This document shows, piece by piece, positions 36,828 to 44,921 of a stretch of DNA of 64,000 bases (position 1 is the stretch's first letter; the number at the start of each line of letters is the position of its first letter). The notes under the pieces were generated by a model. It did no database searches, was not told the origin of the DNA, and saw only the letters and a program-made list of their open reading frames with translations. This DNA comes from an uncultured Pelagibacteraceae bacterium (GTDB lineage: Bacteria; Pseudomonadota; Alphaproteobacteria; Pelagibacterales; Pelagibacteraceae). The position numbers and the translations under genes are program-made. The stretch is taken from positions 1 to 64,000 of the forward strand of contig CACDRY010000003.1 of assembly GCA_902555275.1 (NCBI GenBank). Reading direction: 5' to 3'.

Positions 36828-37325
36828 TTATTCAATAATAATTGGCCCAACCATTCCAGTTTCATAATGACCCGGAATATTACACGCCATTTCTAAAGAA
36901 ATATCTTTTGAAAACTTCCAAATAATTTCTCCTGTTTTATTTGGCTCTAGCATTACACTATTTGCGTGTTTATGGCCTAATGAGTGATCTTTTTTAGACA
37001 TTTCTTTCATTTTTTTATGATCAATACGGTCGCCTAAAAGAATATCGTGTTCAATTAATCTTGCCATTTCGGGTTGGTGATCAATATGCATCTTTTTAGT
37101 GCCAATATTATATTCATGTACCAGTTCACCTAAATTTTTAACAATTATTTTTACTGTTTCACCTTTTTTCACTTTAATTGAGCTTGGTTCATAATAATTG
37201 TCATACATTTTTACTTCTATTACTCTGGTTACGTCTTTCGGATCTCCTTTGGATCCAATCATCTTCATTGACGCTGCATTTGAATTAAAGGCCATAAAAA
37301 CAAATAAAAGTATAAGCTTTTTCAT
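36828..37325 (-). CDS. Secreted cupredoxin-domain protein with a His/Met-rich insert
   Basis: 165 residues, signal peptide about 1-17. The cupredoxin fold is indicated by FxPxxIxVKKGETV-like YEPSSIKVKKGETVKI and by copper ligands His70 (LVHEYN), Cys148, His153 and Met158 (ACNIPGHYETGM). Between strands, residues 76-122 hold many His and Met residues (HIDHQPEM, HKKMKEM, HSLGHKH) that could bind additional copper. Last gene of the small-protein operon; its ATG overlaps the preceding stop (TAATG). Related proteins occur in copper resistance and electron transfer; the role here is unknown. Confidence 0.82.
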   Translation of the reverse strand: MKKLILLFVFMAFNSNAASMKMIGSKGDPKDVTRVIEVKMYDNYYEPSSIKVKKGETVKIIVKNLGELVHEYNIGTKKMHIDHQPEMARLIEHDILLGDRIDHKKMKEMSKKDHSLGHKHANSVMLEPNKTGEIIWKFSKDISLEMACNIPGHYETGMVGPIIIE

Positions 37326-37645
37326 TATTTTGGCATAGGAGTTGCGCCAGTCTCTAAACTAATGATTTTTCCATTATCATATTTGTAAACTGCCATTACT
37401 GCTTCAACATTACCATCGTCAAATGTTACAAAGGCATGATGTACTCCAACCTCATCATTTTCGTAAACAACTCTAGTGTCTCTCTGTTTAATATCTCCAC
37501 TCATGGCCCATTTGATCACATCAGATTTGCTTAAAGTATTACCTGATTTATGCATAGTAAATTTAAAATCATCATGCAAAAGCTCATTCATTGCTGTTTC
37601 ATCTTTATCTTTTATAGCTGCGCTATATTTTTCTAATATTGACAT
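37325..37645 (-). CDS. Small NTF2/SnoaL-like protein
   Basis: 106 residues from ATG 37645, chosen over an upstream in-frame start because AAAGGAG sits 7 bases before it. The pattern MSILEKYSAAI, LLHDDFKFT, VVYENDEVGVHHAFVTF and DGNVEAVMAVYKYDNGKII is that of a one-domain NTF2-like (SnoaL/DUF4440-type) protein. It is a clear paralogue of the gene at 40370 (shared MSILEK start, YENDE-G, KII-LETGAT--PK end). Such folds form hydrophobic pockets for isomerases and cyclases, but no catalytic residue can be assigned here. Confidence 0.78.
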   Translation of the reverse strand: MSILEKYSAAIKDKDETAMNELLHDDFKFTMHKSGNTLSKSDVIKWAMSGDIKQRDTRVVYENDEVGVHHAFVTFDDGNVEAVMAVYKYDNGKIISLETGATPMPK

Positions 37646-37655
37646 TTTATCTCCT

Positions 37656-37943
37656 TTATACTCCTTCAACTATTATTCCATTAGTATCTGCGTTATCTAA
37701 TCGAATTTGTTTTATTGGTTTATATTCTTCAGAATTATACCATTCTTTCGCTTTCTCGTAACTTGGAAATTTTATCACAACTGTCCTTGGATGCTGCCAT
37801 GACCCTTCAATAGTCTCGCTGCTACCACCTCTTACAAGATACTCCCCACCAAATTTTTCTGCAGTGGGTTTAACTTTGTCTATGTATTCCTTATAATTTT
37901 CAGGATTGTTAACATTAAGGTTAAAGATCGCATAACCACTCAT
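37656..37943 (-). CDS. DUF1330-family protein
   Basis: 95 residues. YAIFNLNVNNPENYKEYIDKV, FGGEYLVRGG, EGSWQHPRTVVIKFPSYEKAKEWYNSEEY and IKQIRLDNA follow the DUF1330 consensus, a small dimeric alpha/beta-barrel family of unknown function. Start preceded by CCAGGAGAATAATT. Its stop codon overlaps the Shine-Dalgarno site of the next gene. Confidence 0.85.
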   Translation of the reverse strand: MSGYAIFNLNVNNPENYKEYIDKVKPTAEKFGGEYLVRGGSSETIEGSWQHPRTVVIKFPSYEKAKEWYNSEEYKPIKQIRLDNADTNGIIVEGV

Positions 37944-37945
37944 AA

Positions 37946-38269
37946 TTATTCTCCTGGTTTAATAACAGACTTTGTGGCATCTGCAGCATTTTGAAAAGCT
38001 TTATTGTAGTCAATAACTTCATGTACCATCAAATCATCCATTAGTCCTGAATTTTTAAAAGCAATCTTCAAGGCTAGTGCTTGTTCATAATCTCCTTCTA
38101 CACATGAGATAACATCAAATCTACCTCTTACCCATTCATAGCTGATCAATTTTAAACCAGCCGCCTCAGTAACTTTCTTAGTCGATGCATATCTATCTGC
38201 AGTTGGATCATTTTGCATTCTTTTCATTAATTCTGCACTTATTTTGCCAACCAAATAAAATTTCGCCAT
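37946..38269 (-). CDS. GYD-domain-like small protein
   Basis: 107 residues from ATG 38269, which forms TAATATG with the end of the preceding gene. MAKFYLVGKISAELMKRM, AGLKLISYEWVRGRFDVISCVEGDYEQALALKI resembles the GYD family, another small ferredoxin-like fold. The end is Ala/Lys-rich. Function unknown; the fold assignment is by pattern only. Confidence 0.6.
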   Translation of the reverse strand: MAKFYLVGKISAELMKRMQNDPTADRYASTKKVTEAAGLKLISYEWVRGRFDVISCVEGDYEQALALKIAFKNSGLMDDLMVHEVIDYNKAFQNAADATKSVIKPGE

Positions 38270-38270
38270 A

Positions 38271-38561
38271 TTACATTTCAACCTTTGTTAAATCCCAAGC
38301 AGTCATTTTGATAACACATTCATCGTAAATTTCCTTTCCAACTGGATGTGTACCAGATATTAGTTCTTTCATTTTTTCCATATTATGAACAAATACCTTA
38401 AACATTACGCCACTTTTATCTGGCTTTACTGCTCCTATAGTTTTTTCTGGATGAGCTGCTGATTTTCTTACACTCATACCCTCATCTGATTGCATCCATC
38501 CCATAAATTTTTCAAGTTTTCCTTCTTTCAAATCTACGATCACTAAAACTTCTTTTTCCAT
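38271..38561 (-). CDS. Small protein, probable dimeric alpha/beta-barrel fold
   Basis: 96 residues beginning EKEVLVIVDLKEGKLEKFMGWM. The alternating strand-helix pattern (VLVIVDL, helix, GAVKPDKSGVMFKVFVHNMEKMKELI) suits a ferredoxin-like dimeric barrel. I do not recognise a named family. Excellent ribosome site AGGAGGAAAAA. Sits in the centre of the small-protein operon. Confidence 0.7.
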   Translation of the reverse strand: MEKEVLVIVDLKEGKLEKFMGWMQSDEGMSVRKSAAHPEKTIGAVKPDKSGVMFKVFVHNMEKMKELISGTHPVGKEIYDECVIKMTAWDLTKVEM

Positions 38562-38570
38562 TTTTTCCTC

Positions 38571-38858
38571 CTATTTGTTAAAATCGAAAACTTCTTCTTT
38601 AACCTCAGTAAATTGGTGAGGTTCAAAAAAATCATTCATCTGAGTAAGCTGTTCATTAATAGCATCAGTACTTTCTGCCATCCAATGACAAAACATTGTC
38701 ATAGTATCACCTGGAGTGTAATATGTCATTTGGCATTTAGCTTTATCGCTAGTGGAAGATTTAATCATATCTTCTCTGGACATGCCGCCTAAAACCTCGT
38801 TAAATTTGTCTTTCATTTCTTTAGATTTAAAAGTGTGAGTTACCATATAATATTTCAT
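38571..38858 (-). CDS. Small protein of unknown function in the operon
   Basis: 95 residues: MKYYMVTHTFKSKEMKDKF, then a helical middle, CQMTYYTPGDTMTMFCHWMAEST and EPHQFTEVKEEVF. The strand-helix order again suggests a dimeric alpha/beta-barrel-type protein, with two cysteines and several Met and His. No family recognised with confidence. Strong site AAGGAGAAAAAA. A 53-base AT-rich gap separates it from the secreted protein upstream, the longest within the operon. Confidence 0.68.
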   Translation of the reverse strand: MKYYMVTHTFKSKEMKDKFNEVLGGMSREDMIKSSTSDKAKCQMTYYTPGDTMTMFCHWMAESTDAINEQLTQMNDFFEPHQFTEVKEEVFDFNK

Positions 38859-38911
38859 TTTTTTCTCCTTTTTTTTATTTCGTATTTTAAATCAATCTTA
38901 TGATTATTCAA

Positions 38912-39397
38912 TTATTTCATTAAAGAATATCCACCTTTAAAATAAATTGATGAGGCAAATTTATTTTCTTGGGCTGAGTTAATTGGTGTGTACCCTGTTG
39001 AGCCACTACATTCTATTCCTTTATATTTTCCTGTTCCCCCTAAACATTTAAATGTACCATTCATTGAGTCTCCAAGTGGAATTTCGTAGTATGTAAAAAT
39101 AGTATCCCCATCCATTTGATTTATTTTACAGTGTCCCATTTCAAATCCCTTTCCTGGGATTGTGCCTGCGCCAAGACAATATTGTGAAGCATTATCCATG
39201 AATGTTGTACCTTCGACTGCCATTAATCCTCCAACTCCATCGTAAGTAAAAGTTAAAAAGTTACCCTCGTTATCAGTAAGAAATTTGTTATCTCCAACAA
39301 TAAAACCTTTAAGATCAATTTTTCCTTTATGACCGTCTGCAAAACTTGATGTTGTAAATATTAAAAAAAACATAATTACATATATTTTTTTCATCAT
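38912..39397 (-). CDS. Secreted protein of unknown function
   Basis: 161 residues with a signal peptide (MMKKIYVIMFFLIFTTSSFA, cleavage near residue 20-21, mature start DGHKGKIDL). The mature protein is glycine-rich and strand-rich, with three cysteines paired by position (SQYCLGAG, MGHCKI, FKCLGG plus IECSGS) and GTFKCLGGTGKYKGIECSGS, a pattern seen in beta-barrel proteins of the allene-oxide-cyclase/lipocalin-like kind. That fold is a guess. Lies among cytoplasmic small proteins, so the operon acts across the inner membrane. Confidence 0.72.
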   Translation of the reverse strand: MMKKIYVIMFFLIFTTSSFADGHKGKIDLKGFIVGDNKFLTDNEGNFLTFTYDGVGGLMAVEGTTFMDNASQYCLGAGTIPGKGFEMGHCKINQMDGDTIFTYYEIPLGDSMNGTFKCLGGTGKYKGIECSGSTGYTPINSAQENKFASSIYFKGGYSLMK

Positions 39398-39402
39398 TAG
39401 AA

Positions 39403-39696
39403 TTATCCTTTGTGGTTCATCACAGATTCATCAGTCATCATGGTCATTTTAGATTGGTCCATTATTACTCCAGAATCTATTCTTGCTTGAGTTAGTTCTG
39501 CATCTCCACCAAAACCTTTTAAGCCCTCAGGTGATTCAAAATGAATAACTACAGTCATAGCATTATCATCTTCTTTATCTGCACCTGCAAAAGCTATAGT
39601 CATTCCATACTTTTTAAGTTTCTCACTATTTGCAAGCATCATTTCCTTCCAAGAATTAAAACCTTTTGAGAGTTTTTGTTCTATTTTTACAAACAT
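39403..39696 (-). CDS. Small protein, probable dimeric alpha/beta-barrel fold
   Basis: 97 residues: FVKIEQKLSKGFNSWKEMM, IAFAGADKEDDNAMTVVIHFESPEGLKGF, then a Met-rich tail (SKMTMMTDESVMNH). The layout resembles antibiotic-biosynthesis-monooxygenase/EthD-type small barrels, but no active-site residue can be named. AAAGGAGATATATT precedes the ATG. Six bases separate its stop from the secreted protein start. Confidence 0.68.
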   Translation of the reverse strand: MFVKIEQKLSKGFNSWKEMMLANSEKLKKYGMTIAFAGADKEDDNAMTVVIHFESPEGLKGFGGDAELTQARIDSGVIMDQSKMTMMTDESVMNHKG

Positions 39697-39721
39697 AATA
39701 TATCTCCTTTTTTTTGCTAAT

Positions 39722-39991
39722 TTAATCTGAGCAAACGCTCATTACTGTTGTCTCTTGTTTATGACCAGATTCCGCAATTACTTTAGCATTCTCTGGATTC
39801 TGCATAAATTTTTGCATAGTGTCTGCTGCTGGTGTTTCCATCACAATATGTACTTTATTTGGATTTTCTATTTCATTACCTACGTAAATAGTTTTAATAC
39901 CTGCTGCTTCCCTAGGACCAGAGTGCTCATCAAACATTTTTTTCCAGTGAGCCCAGTCTTTTACTTCAAAGTTACCAACCATTTTTACCAT
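39722..39991 (-). CDS. Small protein, probable dimeric alpha/beta-barrel fold
   Basis: 89 residues from ATG 39991, chosen over an upstream frame extension because GGGGAGAATAAA precedes it and it starts 1 base after the cupin stop. MVGNFEVKDWAHWKKMFDEHSGPREAAGIKTIYVGNE and VHIVMETPAADTMQKFMQNPE follow the strand-helix pattern of small monooxygenase-like barrels. It resembles the 39403 product in layout. Function unknown. Confidence 0.7.
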   Translation of the reverse strand: MVKMVGNFEVKDWAHWKKMFDEHSGPREAAGIKTIYVGNEIENPNKVHIVMETPAADTMQKFMQNPENAKVIAESGHKQETTVMSVCSD

Positions 39992-39992
39992 T

Positions 39993-40343
39993 TTATTCTC
40001 CCCAAACCCCGGCAAACTCATATGCTTCAACAGGTTCATTGCCAACTACCCAAGCGTCATGACCTGGTGTTACGGAGTAAGAATCTCCTGCTTTATATGT
40101 AACCTCTGTTCCATCATCGTGTTTTGCACAAACAGATCCCTTTGTGATAATTCCAATATGGTTTGCCTGACAACTGTCAGTTCCAATATGTGGCTTAACA
40201 TCTGTAGACCATTTCCATCCTGGTTTTAAATGTAATCTAACTACTCTTTGACCGCCTACTTTAACTGCTTCTATTTTAGCATTATTAAACTTATCAACTA
40301 CCTCATCTGCTTTATCAAAGGTTTTAACTTCAATACTACTCAT
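39993..40343 (-). CDS. Small single-domain cupin
   Basis: 116 residues. Cupin motif 1 appears as HIGTDSCQANHIGIITKGSVCAKHDDG and motif 2 as YKAGDSYSVTPGHDAWVVGNEP. His residues in the first motif and the His of PGHDAW could bind a metal. RVVRLHLKPGWKWSTDVKPH precedes the motif as in many small cupins. Start preceded by GAAGGAGTTTAAT. Role in the operon unknown. Confidence 0.82.
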   Translation of the reverse strand: MSSIEVKTFDKADEVVDKFNNAKIEAVKVGGQRVVRLHLKPGWKWSTDVKPHIGTDSCQANHIGIITKGSVCAKHDDGTEVTYKAGDSYSVTPGHDAWVVGNEPVEAYEFAGVWGE

Positions 40344-40369
40344 ATTAAACTCCTTCTGTTAGTTTATAA

Positions 40370-40699
40370 TTATTTTGGTATTTTGGTTGCGCCTGTTTCG
40401 AGTTCAATGATTTTACCATCTTTAAATTTCCAATAACACATTAAAGCCTCTTTATTTCCATCTTCGGCATAAGTAACAATAGAATGATCAAAACCTATTT
40501 CATCGTTTTCATATAAAATTCTATATTTATCAACTTTCATGAAACCTTTGTTAATTGCTTCAATCATACCTGTTTTTCCACTTTCAGTATAGGCTCCCTG
40601 AAGATGAGAATATCTCTTATAATCATCATGAATAATCTCAGCTGCTGCTGCACCATCTTTTTCCATGATTGCTTTATTAAGTTTTTCTAAAATTGACAT
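40370..40699 (-). CDS. Small NTF2/SnoaL-like protein, paralogue of the 37325 gene
   Basis: 109 residues: MSILEKLNKAIMEKDGAAAAEIIHDDYKRY, ILYENDEIGFDHSIVTY, GNKEALMCYWKFKDGKII and a C-terminal LETGATKIPK. These elements recur in the gene at 37325, so the operon contains an internal duplication whose copies now lie about 2.7 kb apart. One-domain NTF2-like fold. Ribosome site AAGGAACA. Confidence 0.78.
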   Translation of the reverse strand: MSILEKLNKAIMEKDGAAAAEIIHDDYKRYSHLQGAYTESGKTGMIEAINKGFMKVDKYRILYENDEIGFDHSIVTYAEDGNKEALMCYWKFKDGKIIELETGATKIPK

Positions 40700-40707
40700 A
40701 TTGTTCC

Positions 40708-41091
40708 TTACTTCTTCATTGCATTGAACATGCTAAGCGTATCATCAAAAGTCATCATAACTTTAGTTTTTCCCTCATCACTTACTTCAAAATAGTGACC
40801 AAACATAGTATCCATGTTATCCGCAGTTGCATGAACTCTTGCAAAAACTTTATTTCCTTCACTTATCATATCTAAAACTTTTAAATGGAAATTTGGCCAA
40901 GTAGCTGGGATTTTAGACATTGCAGCCATCATAGCTTGTTTCCCTTTGTGAACTCCAGAAAGTGGATGTACACCTTCTTTACCTGGAAAAGTCCAAACGA
41001 TTTCATCATCGATCATATCATTAAAAAATGTTTCCATATCTCCTGAACCAAATAGTTCATATGCTTTTTTAGTTTGCTCTTTTACGTCCAT
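40708..41091 (-). CDS. SnoaL-like/ketosteroid-isomerase-like protein, first gene of the operon
   Basis: 127 residues: TKKAYELFGSGDMETFFNDMIDDEIVWTFPGKEGVHPLSGVHKGKQAMMAAM is the standard start of SnoaL-like (DUF4440-relative) proteins, followed by FHLKVLDMISEGNKVFARVHATADNM. The family binds small hydrophobic compounds or isomerises them. AAAGGAGAAACT precedes the ATG. A TATAAT box lies about 37 bases upstream. Confidence 0.82.
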   Translation of the reverse strand: MDVKEQTKKAYELFGSGDMETFFNDMIDDEIVWTFPGKEGVHPLSGVHKGKQAMMAAMSKIPATWPNFHLKVLDMISEGNKVFARVHATADNMDTMFGHYFEVSDEGKTKVMMTFDDTLSMFNAMKK

Positions 41092-41176: not shown

Positions 41177-42178
41177 TTATATCCAGTGAGGATAGGGAAG
41201 ACCTTTTTCTTTTAAAAAAGATTTATTGAACATCTTTGAGTTGTATTTATCAGATTTATCACAAAGAATTGTGACAATCGTTTTACCTGGTCCTAAAAGT
41301 TTACCCAATCTTATTGCTCCAGCAATGTTCACTCCACAACTTGTACCTAAACTTAAACCTTCTTTTTCAATTAAATCGAATAAAACAGGTAAAGACTCAT
41401 GATCACTTATTGAAAATGCTCCATCAATACGTGCTTTTGCAAAATTCGCAGTAACTCTACTAGATCCAATACCTTCAGTTATTGAACCACCTTCACTCTT
41501 TAATTCACCATTTTCAACGTAACTATATAGAGAGGAACCTGTTGGATCTGATAAATATATTTTAATATCTTTATTCTTTTCTTTTAAAAAACTACTTACA
41601 CCTGCAATTGTACCACCAGTACCAGATGAACATACAAAACCATCTATTTTGCCATCAGTCTGTTCCCATATTTCTGGCCCTGTTGTTTCATAATGACCTT
41701 TAGAATTAGCAGTATTATCAAATTGATTAGCCCACACTACACCGTGATTGTTGCTACTTTTTAATTCATCAGCCAATCTTCCTGCATATTTAACAAAGTT
41801 ATTTTCATCTTTATAAGGTTTAGGTGGAACCAACCTTAAATCAGCTCCAATATTTCTTAATAAATCTTTTTTTTCTTGTGTTTGATTATCGTTCATTACG
41901 ATAATAGTTTTATAACCAATAGAATTTCCTAATAGACATAATCCAATTCCAGTATTACCAGCAGTTCCTTCAACAATTGTTCCACCTTTTGAAATTAGTT
42001 TTTTTTCTTCAGCATCTCTTATCAAAGCTAAAGCTGCTCTATCTTTTACAGAGCCACCTGGATTAAGGTACTCTGCTTTTCCATAAATATTACAACCAGT
42101 AATTTCTGATGCGACTTTTAATTTAAATAAAGGAGTATTTCCTATTGCTTCGACAAAATTATTTTGTAAAGTTTTCAT
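41177..42178 (-). CDS. cysK: Cysteine synthase (O-acetylserine sulfhydrylase)
   Basis: 333 residues of the PLP fold-type II family. The PLP lysine is K45 in [25 protein letters not shown] binds substrate, and [12 protein letters not shown] the phosphate. It makes cysteine from O-acetylserine and sulfide. Overlaps cysE by 4 bases, so the acetylated serine producer and consumer are co-translated. Cystathionine-beta-synthase-like activity is the main alternative for this long form. Confidence 0.9.
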
Positions 42179-42756
42179 ACATCAAGCTTTGTATCACCCC
42201 CTGGTGCAACTCCATAGGGTTTAAATTCTTCAGATGCAGTACCAACATTTTTTGCTGGAATTCCAACCATTACTGCATTTTCTGGAACATCTTTTGTAAC
42301 AACGGCGTTGGCTCCAATTTTTGCATTTTTACCAACCACAACTGGTCCAAGTATTTGTGCACCAGAACCTACAACAACATTTTCTTTTAATGTTGGATGT
42401 CTCTTAACATTTCTTTGATCATCTGAATTAATACTTGGTGCAATTCCGCCTAATGTTGCCATGTGATAGATAGTAACGTTATCTCCAATATCAGATGTTT
42501 CTCCAATTACTACTCCCATACCATGATCTATAAAAAGATTTTTTCCAATTTTAGCATTTGGATGAATTTCAATACCTGTTAAAAATCTTGAGAACTGAGA
42601 AATTATTCTTGCAACAAGATGAAATTTTGCAATTGAAAAAAAATTTGCAATTCTATGAAAAAATAAAGCTTTAACACCAGGATAAGTTAGTATTAAACTT
42701 AACTTTGATCTTGCGGCAGGATCTCTTTTAATTATCGACTCTAAAAAATCATTCAT
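42175..42756 (-). CDS. cysE: Serine acetyltransferase
   Basis: 193 residues. An N-terminal helical part with [28 protein letters not shown], then a left-handed beta-helix of hexapeptide repeats with the CysE motif [19 protein letters not shown] and [19 protein letters not shown]. It acetylates serine for CysK. This is the short form, lacking about 60-80 N-terminal residues of the E. coli enzyme. There is no clear ribosome site in the 30 bases after the cysteine-rich peptide gene, which may couple its translation to that peptide. Confidence 0.92.
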
Positions 42757-42786
42757 GTTTATTTAAGATTAGTTATTAAAATTTAA

Positions 42787-42897
42787 CTACTTGTTACAAC
42801 AGCAGTTTTCTGATGATGGTTTGCAATCACAGTTTTTACAAACACATCTGTCACAAGAACAGTTTTTACATTTACAGTGTATATTATTGCATACCAT
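42787..42897 (-). CDS. 36-residue cysteine-rich peptide: metallothionein-like or polycysteine leader
   Basis: Reading the minus strand from ATG 42897 to TAG 42787 gives 36 residues, 12 of them Cys (positions 3, 8, 10, 13, 15, 18, 20, 23, 25, 32, 33, 34). Residues 8-25 are a run of CxC and CxxC motifs (CKCKNCSCDRCVCKNCDC), typical of metallothioneins, and Cys32-34 form a CCC just before the end. Lys and Asn make up most of the rest. It lies 54 bases after the persulfide dioxygenase gene and 30 bases before cysE, same strand. It may bind Zn/Cu or polysulfide sulfur, or act as a cysteine-sensing leader peptide for cysEK. No good Shine-Dalgarno site is seen. Confidence 0.72.
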   Translation of the reverse strand: MVCNNIHCKCKNCSCDRCVCKNCDCKPSSENCCCNK

Positions 42898-42951
42898 GAG
42901 AGTTATATAATTGTATATTTTTTAAAAACAATACTAATAATAACCCTGATT

Positions 42952-43644
42952 TTAGAGTTCTTTAAGCGTTAATCCCTTTAGATTTGCTGGTACTGCGATA
43001 TCCATCATTTTTGGATTGGCAAGATTAAGATTATCCATTATTTCAGCATATTCCTCTTTTGAGCTAACTTGTAATCGAGGATTATTGCTTTTTTCGTTAC
43101 CAATTGTTGAATTTTTTTTTCCATTATAATCATGGGCAGGATAAACAAGTGTTTCTTCTGGAAGTTTTAATAATTTGCCAAACAATGACTCATAAGCCTG
43201 ATGAGCACTTCCATTTTGAAAATCTGTTCTACCTGTCCCATTAATTAAAAGAGTATCGCCTGTAAAAACTCTATCATTCATTAAGTAACTATATGAACAA
43301 TCTGTATGACCAGGAGTATAAATAGCTTTAAGCTCAATATTCTCGATATTTATATTTTCTTCATCTTTCAATTTTATATCAATTACCTCAGATTTAGAGT
43401 TTTCACCCATCATACGAACACAATTAGTTCTTTGATTGAGCTCATTTAAGCCAGTTACATGATCTGCATGAATATGAGTATCAATTACTTTTACAAGTTT
43501 TAATTCCAAACTTTCTAAAACTTTTATGTATTCATCAGTATGTTCAATAACTGGATCTATGATTAATGCCTCACGTCCTTTTCCACTCGAAATAATATAA
43601 GTGTAAGTCGAGGATTTAGTATCAAATAGTTGTTCGAAAATCAT
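42952..43644 (-). CDS. Persulfide dioxygenase, ETHE1-like metallo-beta-lactamase-fold protein
   Basis: 230 residues. Metal motif DTHIHADHVTG (His57, His59, Asp61, His62), second-site YTPGHTDCSYSY and the late YPAHDYNG His. IIDPVIEHTDEYIKVLE and TLLINGTGRTDFQNGSAHQAYESLF are characteristic of the ETHE1 persulfide dioxygenase group rather than glyoxalase II. It oxidises glutathione persulfide to sulfite with one iron. Next to the sulfide:quinone oxidoreductase gene (35-base gap), whose persulfide product it would consume. Confidence 0.88.
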   Translation of the reverse strand: MIFEQLFDTKSSTYTYIISSGKGREALIIDPVIEHTDEYIKVLESLELKLVKVIDTHIHADHVTGLNELNQRTNCVRMMGENSKSEVIDIKLKDEENINIENIELKAIYTPGHTDCSYSYLMNDRVFTGDTLLINGTGRTDFQNGSAHQAYESLFGKLLKLPEETLVYPAHDYNGKKNSTIGNEKSNNPRLQVSSKEEYAEIMDNLNLANPKMMDIAVPANLKGLTLKEL

Positions 43645-43679: not shown

Positions 43680-44921
43680 CTAATTTTCAATAGCTTTATG
43701 ATTAGGTCTGCTCCATTCTTTTCCTTTAAACATAACGTTCCATTGTAACCAAGGAAATAGCTTTGATTTCATTTGCCAATATAAAGAGCTTGGTTTTGTT
43801 GGGTCAAAAGGCAAACTTGGAGTTACTTTTCCACCATAACAAAATTCTGCTAACATAACTTTACCGTATGCAACTGTTAATGGACAAGCACCGTATCCAT
43901 CATAAAGTCTATATGCTTCGGACGACTTATTAATATCTTTAATGATATTATGAGCAACTATTGGAGCTTGTTTTCTAACTGCTGCTCCTGTTTTTGCATT
44001 AGGTGCATTCATTACATCACCTAAACTATAAATATTTTCATATTTAGTATGTCTTAATGTTCCTTCTTTATGATCTACATCAACCCAACCACCAGCATCA
44101 GCTAATGGACTATTCTTAATAAAGTCTGGAGAAGTTTGAGGTGGTGTTACATGAATAAAATCAAATTTCTTTGTAACCTCTTTTGAATTTCCGTCTTTAT
44201 CAGATTGTTTGAATACAGCCTCTTTGGCCTCTCCGTTTACTGAAATTAAATTATGCTGGAAGCTTCTTTTAATACCATATGAGTCGCATATTTCATTCAG
44301 TGGACCTTGAAAGTGAGGTACACCAAAAATAACTGGCTTTGCACATAAAAATTCTAAATTACTATCTTTAAGAGCTCCTTTTTTCTTTAAATGGTCAGCA
44401 GCTAAGTATGCTATTTTTTGAGGTGCTCCAGCACACTTAATTGGCATTGGAGGTTCAGTGAATAGTAAATTTCCTCTATGTAAATTTTTTAGACATTCCC
44501 AAGTATAAACAGCCATATCTGAACTATAATTAGTACAAACATTATTTTTTCCTAAAGTTTCTTTTAGCCCAGCCACTCCATCAAAGTTAATTTTTAAACC
44601 AGGGCAAACTACTAAATAGTCATATGAATATTCACCACCTGAAGTTTTCACTGAATTAGATTCAGGGGAAAAACTTTCAGCATATTCTTTAATCCAATTA
44701 ACGTAACTAGGCATTACAGATGACATTGGCTTAATCGTACTGTTTACATCATAAGCACCCGCACCCACTAAAGTCCATGCAGCTTGATATAAAGATTTTT
44801 CAGAAGGTTCTATAATTGATATTGATAAGTCAGACTTTAAACTTTTTAGTCTTGTGGCAACTGATATACCAGCGCACCCACCACCGATAATCAAAATATT
44901 TGAGTGATTAGAATTATTCAT
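43680..44921 (-). CDS. Sulfide:quinone oxidoreductase, mitochondrial-type (SQRDL-like)
   Basis: 413 residues. FAD motif ILIIGGGCAGISVATRL at the N-terminus, PPMPIKCAGAPQKIAYLA with Cys163 and YGACPLTVAYGKVMLAEF with Cys346; these two correspond to the redox cysteines of human SQRDL. The C-terminal region has the amphipathic membrane-binding stretch PSSLYWQMKSKLFPWLQW. It oxidises sulfide to a persulfide and passes electrons to quinone at the inner membrane. First gene of the sulfur operon and divergent from the peroxiredoxin gene. Confidence 0.9.
   Translation of the reverse strand: MNNSNHSNILIIGGGCAGISVATRLKSLKSDLSISIIEPSEKSLYQAAWTLVGAGAYDVNSTIKPMSSVMPSYVNWIKEYAESFSPESNSVKTSGGEYSYDYLVVCPGLKINFDGVAGLKETLGKNNVCTNYSSDMAVYTWECLKNLHRGNLLFTEPPMPIKCAGAPQKIAYLAADHLKKKGALKDSNLEFLCAKPVIFGVPHFQGPLNEICDSYGIKRSFQHNLISVNGEAKEAVFKQSDKDGNSKEVTKKFDFIHVTPPQTSPDFIKNSPLADAGGWVDVDHKEGTLRHTKYENIYSLGDVMNAPNAKTGAAVRKQAPIVAHNIIKDINKSSEAYRLYDGYGACPLTVAYGKVMLAEFCYGGKVTPSLPFDPTKPSSLYWQMKSKLFPWLQWNVMFKGKEWSRPNHKAIEN

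Follow-up and report, generated by a model that had tools for sequence, protein, structure and literature searches.

A gene for a 36-residue peptide with 12 cysteines lies directly before the cysteine synthesis genes cysE and cysK of a SAR11 bacterium (Pelagibacteraceae). It is a conserved gene that probably codes for a metallothionein-like small protein and is equipped with its own promoter, a hairpin at the end of the gene and readthrough into cysE-cysK. SAR11 bacteria are among the most abundant cells of the ocean, and they have small genomes with few regulators. The peptide belongs to an unannotated family of Cys-rich microproteins that was detected in roughly one of eight genomes sampled from the order and has homologues in many marine viral contigs. 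Such a family would add a new element to the ocean metal and sulfur economy. Since no known family model covers the peptide, automatic annotation is likely to miss it. Its conserved, putatively leaderless promoter and the hairpin at the last cysteines (CCC) and stop codon raise the question of whether translation of a Cys-rich ORF is coupled to cysteine synthesis outside actinobacteria.

The Cys-rich gene and its surroundings

The analysed stretch of 64,000 nucleotides (the window) contains the peptide ORF at 42787..42897 on the minus strand. Its translation is MVCNNIHCKCKNCSCDRCVCKNCDCKPSSENCCCNK, followed by a stop codon. The initial annotation had placed a 36-residue, 12-cysteine frame between a persulfide dioxygenase gene and cysE, and its coordinates proved exact. 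Two occurrences of the CxC/CxxC pattern were detected in the window, each of them within the peptide ORF, and none in 100 dinucleotide shuffles; the spacing of cysteines exceeds chance. The possibility of a chance ORF is ruled out by conservation of the peptide among relatives.

All genes listed next with coordinates are encoded by the minus strand. An AT-rich gap of 30 nt (42757..42786) separates the peptide gene from cysE, coding for serine O-acetyltransferase (42175..42756; NF041874, 2.2e-67; TIGR01172 above cutoff). It is followed, with ATGA overlap, by cysK, coding for cysteine synthase A (41177..42178; NF007989, 2.5e-155). No Shine-Dalgarno-like sequence precedes cysE in the window or in 20 lineages, as expected from the earlier remark that cysE lacks a good ribosome site. 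On the upstream side are located a gene for a persulfide-dioxygenase/glyoxalase-II-like MBL protein (42952..43644; PF00753; TIGR03413 below cutoff), which is probably a transcription unit separate from the peptide gene, and a gene for a sulfide:quinone-reductase-like (SQR-like) flavoprotein (43680..44921; NF049943 below cutoff). A divergent peroxiredoxin is found upstream of these two.

The SQR-like gene between peroxiredoxin and dioxygenase is present in the window and in loci L004-L006 and absent in L002, L003 and L007. The latter three have cysE near-identical to that of SQR-bearing relatives, which points to recent gain or loss.

Conservation at the protein level

Length differences among the 16 members aligned first come down to an indel of three residues and minor changes at the C-terminus. 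Members contain 11-12 cysteines in 36-39 residues (about 30%), and CxC/CxxC spacing is conserved across lineages. In 78 distinct coding sequences, TGT and TGC are freely exchanged at the 11 shared Cys columns, while residue changes are rare. Purifying selection acts on Cys positions (dN/dS about 0.02 in the window's subclade) as well as on the remaining residues (about 0.31 in both groups). Among the latter, Asn5, Asp16 and Pro27 (numbered as in the window) hardly vary; all 78 sequences have Pro27, which differs in two further loci, L287 and L288. In SAR11 members the CCC run is near-invariant and ends 0-2 codons from the stop. Judged by these sequence patterns, the peptide ORF is a conserved protein-coding gene. 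A 44-residue variant with 14 cysteines and additional CxC/CxxC units (L258 in G025, 2338-2472) is missed by the family profile.

Two readings had been proposed in the initial annotation: a metallothionein-like metal or sulfane-sulfur buffer and a leader whose cysteine codons sense Cys-tRNA supply. Conserved Cys spacing with synonymous TGT/TGC changes is the outcome that it had assigned to a protein. Of the signs assigned to a leader, a covarying hairpin at the near-invariant CCC is found (see below), but non-Cys residues are conserved as well. In its strict form, the leader reading holds that scarce Cys-tRNA stalls ribosomes on the ORF, the tail hairpin opens and cysE-cysK expression rises, the peptide itself being functionless. 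A leader that needs Cys codons alone would leave non-Cys residues and spacing free. Since both are constrained, as also illustrated by Pro27, a pure leader is disfavoured.

Disruption of the frame in close relatives, named earlier as evidence against a functional ORF, was found in a single genome. This natural allele, MACNISNCKFKQASENCCC (L285 in G048, 2409-2470), has lost the Cys-rich core by internal deletion and retains promoter, ATG, CCC and both hairpin arms. Such a remnant is what a leader might look like. It is a single recent case and proves nothing.

Distribution and linkage to cysE

Profile search detected full-length members in 51 of 397 genomes of the order, 50 of them from the window's genus and one from another genus; three further weak partial matches are left out of this count. 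The 75 named loci all come from single-cell or metagenome assemblies of Pelagibacteraceae/Pelagibacterales. Profile searches of 385 genomes of the class and 398 genomes of the phylum revealed no members outside SAR11.

The peptide stop codon is located 25-38 nt before the cysE ATG in all 121 peptide loci analysed (some genomes are counted twice, under two handles), and the dioxygenase gene lies upstream of the peptide in 120 of them. At L286, from genus g8, the peptide gene is followed by cysE and by an ORF that looks msrB-like by eye, and the stretch covered there carries no dioxygenase gene. Peptide-less relatives possess either dioxygenase, cysE and cysK in this order, with cysE 24-52 nt past the dioxygenase gene, or cysE-cysK alone. 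On the cysE tree, presence of the peptide requires four changes, and at least one clean loss is nested among peptide-bearing clades. Because peptide-less relatives keep cysE and the tree reveals changes in presence, the peptide gene is an optional module, always found at the site before cysE. Its invariable position would suit a leader; relatives that have cysE closely behind the dioxygenase gene and manage without any leader argue against one.

The locus had been described as a same-strand sulfur operon. This holds as far as strand and adjacency to cysE-cysK are concerned, but the peptide gene has its own conserved promoter and in another genus precedes cysE with no dioxygenase gene nearby. 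The same two observations rule out that the peptide gene is part of a dioxygenase operon only. They also speak against the idea that the peptide is a sulfane-sulfur (persulfide) carrier or buffer serving the adjacent persulfide dioxygenase and sulfide:quinone reductase. The upstream dioxygenase gene in 120 of 121 loci would fit such a role, but sqr is missing at the site in several peptide-bearing genomes and no sulfur-oxidation neighbours occur among the examined proteins encoded next to viral homologues. We consider a persulfide carrier very unlikely.

Homologues in marine viral contigs

The core pattern C.N..C.C..C..D.C.C, searched as a degenerate DNA pattern, matches at least 120 stretches of viral contigs. 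Nearly all matches are short ORFs, for example MCNNEECKCENCTCDPCECTIDNQCGCDEELVSAI; a few (e.g. L127, L131, L175 and L189) are not credible members. The more specific form C.N..C.C..C.CDPC.C is present in about 108 of the 120 viral matches listed. These Cys-rich peptides of 20-50 residues (CNNPECKCENCTCDPCEC and others) are encoded in marine viral contigs (IMG/VR), with examples in L119 (4998-5096), L134 (around 7298), L143 (around 3244) and about 100 more loci (L118-L240). Their neighbours include cytidylyltransferase, tail and head genes, contexts are unrelated and the copies do not lie beside cysE. For two of the viral contigs, the named phages with matching surroundings are T4-like cyanophages.

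Since the search pattern itself required the Asn and Asp, both positions were skipped when homology was assessed. At the remaining non-Cys positions, SAR11 and viral cores score 5.85 versus -3.67 +/- 0.43 for shuffles within each core. Profile-profile comparison of the SAR11 peptide with the viral family (hhalign) yields 97.5%, and the viral profile matches only cysE-linked copies in SAR11 genomes. Searches of 50,697 phage records by tblastn and blastn, whose low-complexity filter may mask such queries, retrieved no relatives, and the core pattern is absent from six cyanophage/pelagiphage records. As judged from core and profile similarity, the SAR11 peptide is homologous to an undescribed marine viral Cys-rich family.

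Both groups have the same 18-residue core register and have Asn4, Asn5, Pro6, Asn12 and Thr14 in common. The viral core C-x-N-x-x-C-x-C-x-x-C-x-C-D-P-C-x-C carries CDPC at positions 15-18, whereas its counterpart is CDRC in the window and xDxC in most other SAR11 lineages. Viral copies mostly end in CGC or acidic tails, and none of those listed has a CCC tail; SAR11 copies, in contrast, have CCC at or close to their end. The core thus appears common to the viral family, and the CCC tail together with its hairpin appears particular to the cysE-linked SAR11 version. Since the viral homologues stand alone, away from cysE, a stand-alone metallothionein-like protein is favoured over a pure leader.

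Relation to known families and metallothioneins

No credible match to the peptide was obtained in Pfam, NCBIfam and PHROGs; Pfam returned no family for the window peptide at E<=1 and none for all 24 members at E<=10. Like the bacterial metallothioneins SmtA, BmtA and PmtA (PF02069), the peptide is small and Cys-rich, with CxC and CxxC motifs. However, its spacing differs from that of SmtA, and it lacks the aromatic/His-bearing segment found there. PF02069 was not detected in 61 SAR11 relatives, the control genome of Synechococcus elongatus being positive. Comparison by hhalign gives 0.4% for SmtA and 4% for human MT2A. With no SmtA-family match in the peptide or its relatives, the earlier view that the arrangement is unlike SmtA stands, and on sequence comparison the likeness is one of composition, not of membership. 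Vertebrate MT2A resembles the peptide by eye (CKCKxCxC, CC runs); evidence of homology is nil and the resemblance is probably convergent. A search of the available literature for SAR11 or phage metallothioneins found nothing useful.

At the level of sequence, the metallothionein-like reading gains from Cys spacing, selection on non-Cys residues, stand-alone viral homologues and the 44-residue variant. Binding of metals or thiols is the most likely function of the peptide, with expression tied to cysteine supply. Its ligands may be soft metal ions such as Cu(I) or Zn(II), or it may buffer cytoplasmic thiols in another way.

Promoter

Two promoter-like elements, both kept in relatives, precede the peptide gene on the minus strand: a -35-like TTGTTT (42926..42931), with TTG at about -34 from the peptide ATG, and a -10-like TATATAAC (42902..42909), with TATA at -12 to -10. 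All 20 divergent lineages compared show this TTG/TATA arrangement, as do all 10 loci outside the set from which the rule was derived. Elsewhere it precedes one of the 71 other long ORFs in the window and 0.5% of ATGs. The conserved placement predicts a transcript start at or next to the ATG, which would make the peptide gene a leaderless first cistron.

A TATATAG box occurs about 8 nt before the cysE ATG in some relatives without the peptide (L249, L250, L260 and L274) and suggests leaderless cysE mRNAs. The peptide ORF thus seems to be placed between promoter and cysE.

Hairpin at the end of the gene

A putative RNA hairpin, AACUGCU..AGUAGUU (42785..42807, minus strand), is built from the last Cys codons together with the stop. 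The segment takes in three Cys codons, one or two codons after these and the stop. When sliding windows were compared with synonymous-codon shuffles, this segment had a mean rank of 0.083 in 20 lineages, most of the gene ranking at about 0.3-0.65; on eight unseen sequences the rank was 0.057. Covariation was matched by one of 500 shuffles and exceeds that of every slid register (24 sequences without the window's subclade), and one pair is found as GC, CG, AU and UA. Since the sequences are related, this support is good but not overwhelming. Members of the window's subclade have a shifted 3' arm (AACUGCU/AGUAGUU). Of 50 distinct tails, 15 continue with a U-rich stretch after the hairpin and that of the window does not, so the hairpin is no plain terminator everywhere, the window included. 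No Rfam elements were detected in the window, and RNA structure of the whole region is not significant there (z -0.90); the tail hairpin alone stands out.

Possible coupling to cysteine synthesis

Tight and exclusive linkage to cysE together with the CCC hairpin exceeds the needs of a plain metallothionein. In mycobacteria, Cys-rich leaderless uORFs are located upstream of cysteine genes (Shell et al. 2015, PMC4633059), and an attenuation mechanism of polycysteine sORFs is attributed to Canestrari et al. 2020 in PMC9031893. As far as the summary in PMC9031893 goes, the systems have in common a leaderless Cys-rich first cistron before a cysteine gene and a Cys run with RNA structure near the stop. 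Unlike those leaders as summarised there, the SAR11 peptide has Cys codons throughout the ORF, conserved non-Cys residues and stand-alone homologues, and stalling on it is not predicted to free the cysE start. By analogy, polycysteine leaders are a serious analogue.

This precedent, the predicted leaderless start upstream of a cysteine gene and the consecutive cysteines near the stop, whose codons build the covarying hairpin, speak for the leader reading. Modelling speaks against it. Accessibility of the cysE start is 0.48 for free RNA and 0.49 with a ribosome stalled at CCC, i.e. stalling at the Cys tract is not predicted to open structure over the downstream start. Moreover, Cys codons begin at codon 3, and cysteine starvation would therefore halt ribosomes well ahead of the hairpin. 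If the latter acts like a terminator, such early stalling would lower cysE expression rather than raise it, which is the wrong sign for an attenuator. Given the unchanged accessibility, the early Cys codons and relatives in which cysE is present and the peptide is not, there is no support for classical attenuation, and a metallothionein-like protein with an intercistronic hairpin is favoured. We regard a functionless leader peptide as unlikely; the earlier leader proposal nevertheless gains unforeseen support from the promoter, the CCC run and the hairpin.

The two functions might also be combined, in that a metal or thiol binder reports cysteine supply to cysE-cysK by its own translation, with translational coupling and the CCC-stop hairpin as the link. 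This would account for selection on the protein and for its viral homologues as well as for the leaderless promoter, the hairpin, the CCC tail missing in viral copies and the lack of a cysE Shine-Dalgarno sequence. But in the model accessibility does not change when a ribosome stalls at CCC and rises slightly, from 0.48 to 0.60, when it sits at the stop codon, and we give such a dual role little credence. Similarly speculative is the broader proposal that a metal/thiol-binding microprotein of viruses and SAR11 was installed as leaderless first cistron of cysE-cysK, its translation setting cysteine synthesis through the CCC-stop hairpin. If true, one short ORF would supply both a Cys-rich product and a sensor of the cysteine consumed by that product.

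According to the favoured reading, that of a metallothionein-like protein, the peptide would be translated, probably from a leaderless mRNA with the peptide's ATG at its 5' end. The hairpin at the last codons and stop may limit or stabilise the end of this short message. The peptide mRNA would be abundant and a fraction would continue into cysE-cysK; the balance between peptide and cysE-cysK output would be set by the intercistronic hairpin, through partial termination or through mRNA stability. Co-transcribed cysE-cysK would provide the cysteine needed by the peptide, from which we infer a reason for the linkage.

Other features of the region

An AT-rich palindrome, TTGATTATTTAAATAATCAA (with variants), occurs in the gap between peptide stop and cysE in L008, L099, L109, L111, L117 and relatives; it is a candidate hairpin or operator. 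Directly past cysK, at 36828-41091, the window contains about ten consecutive small ORFs (95-165 aa) on the same strand, one of them SnoaL-like.
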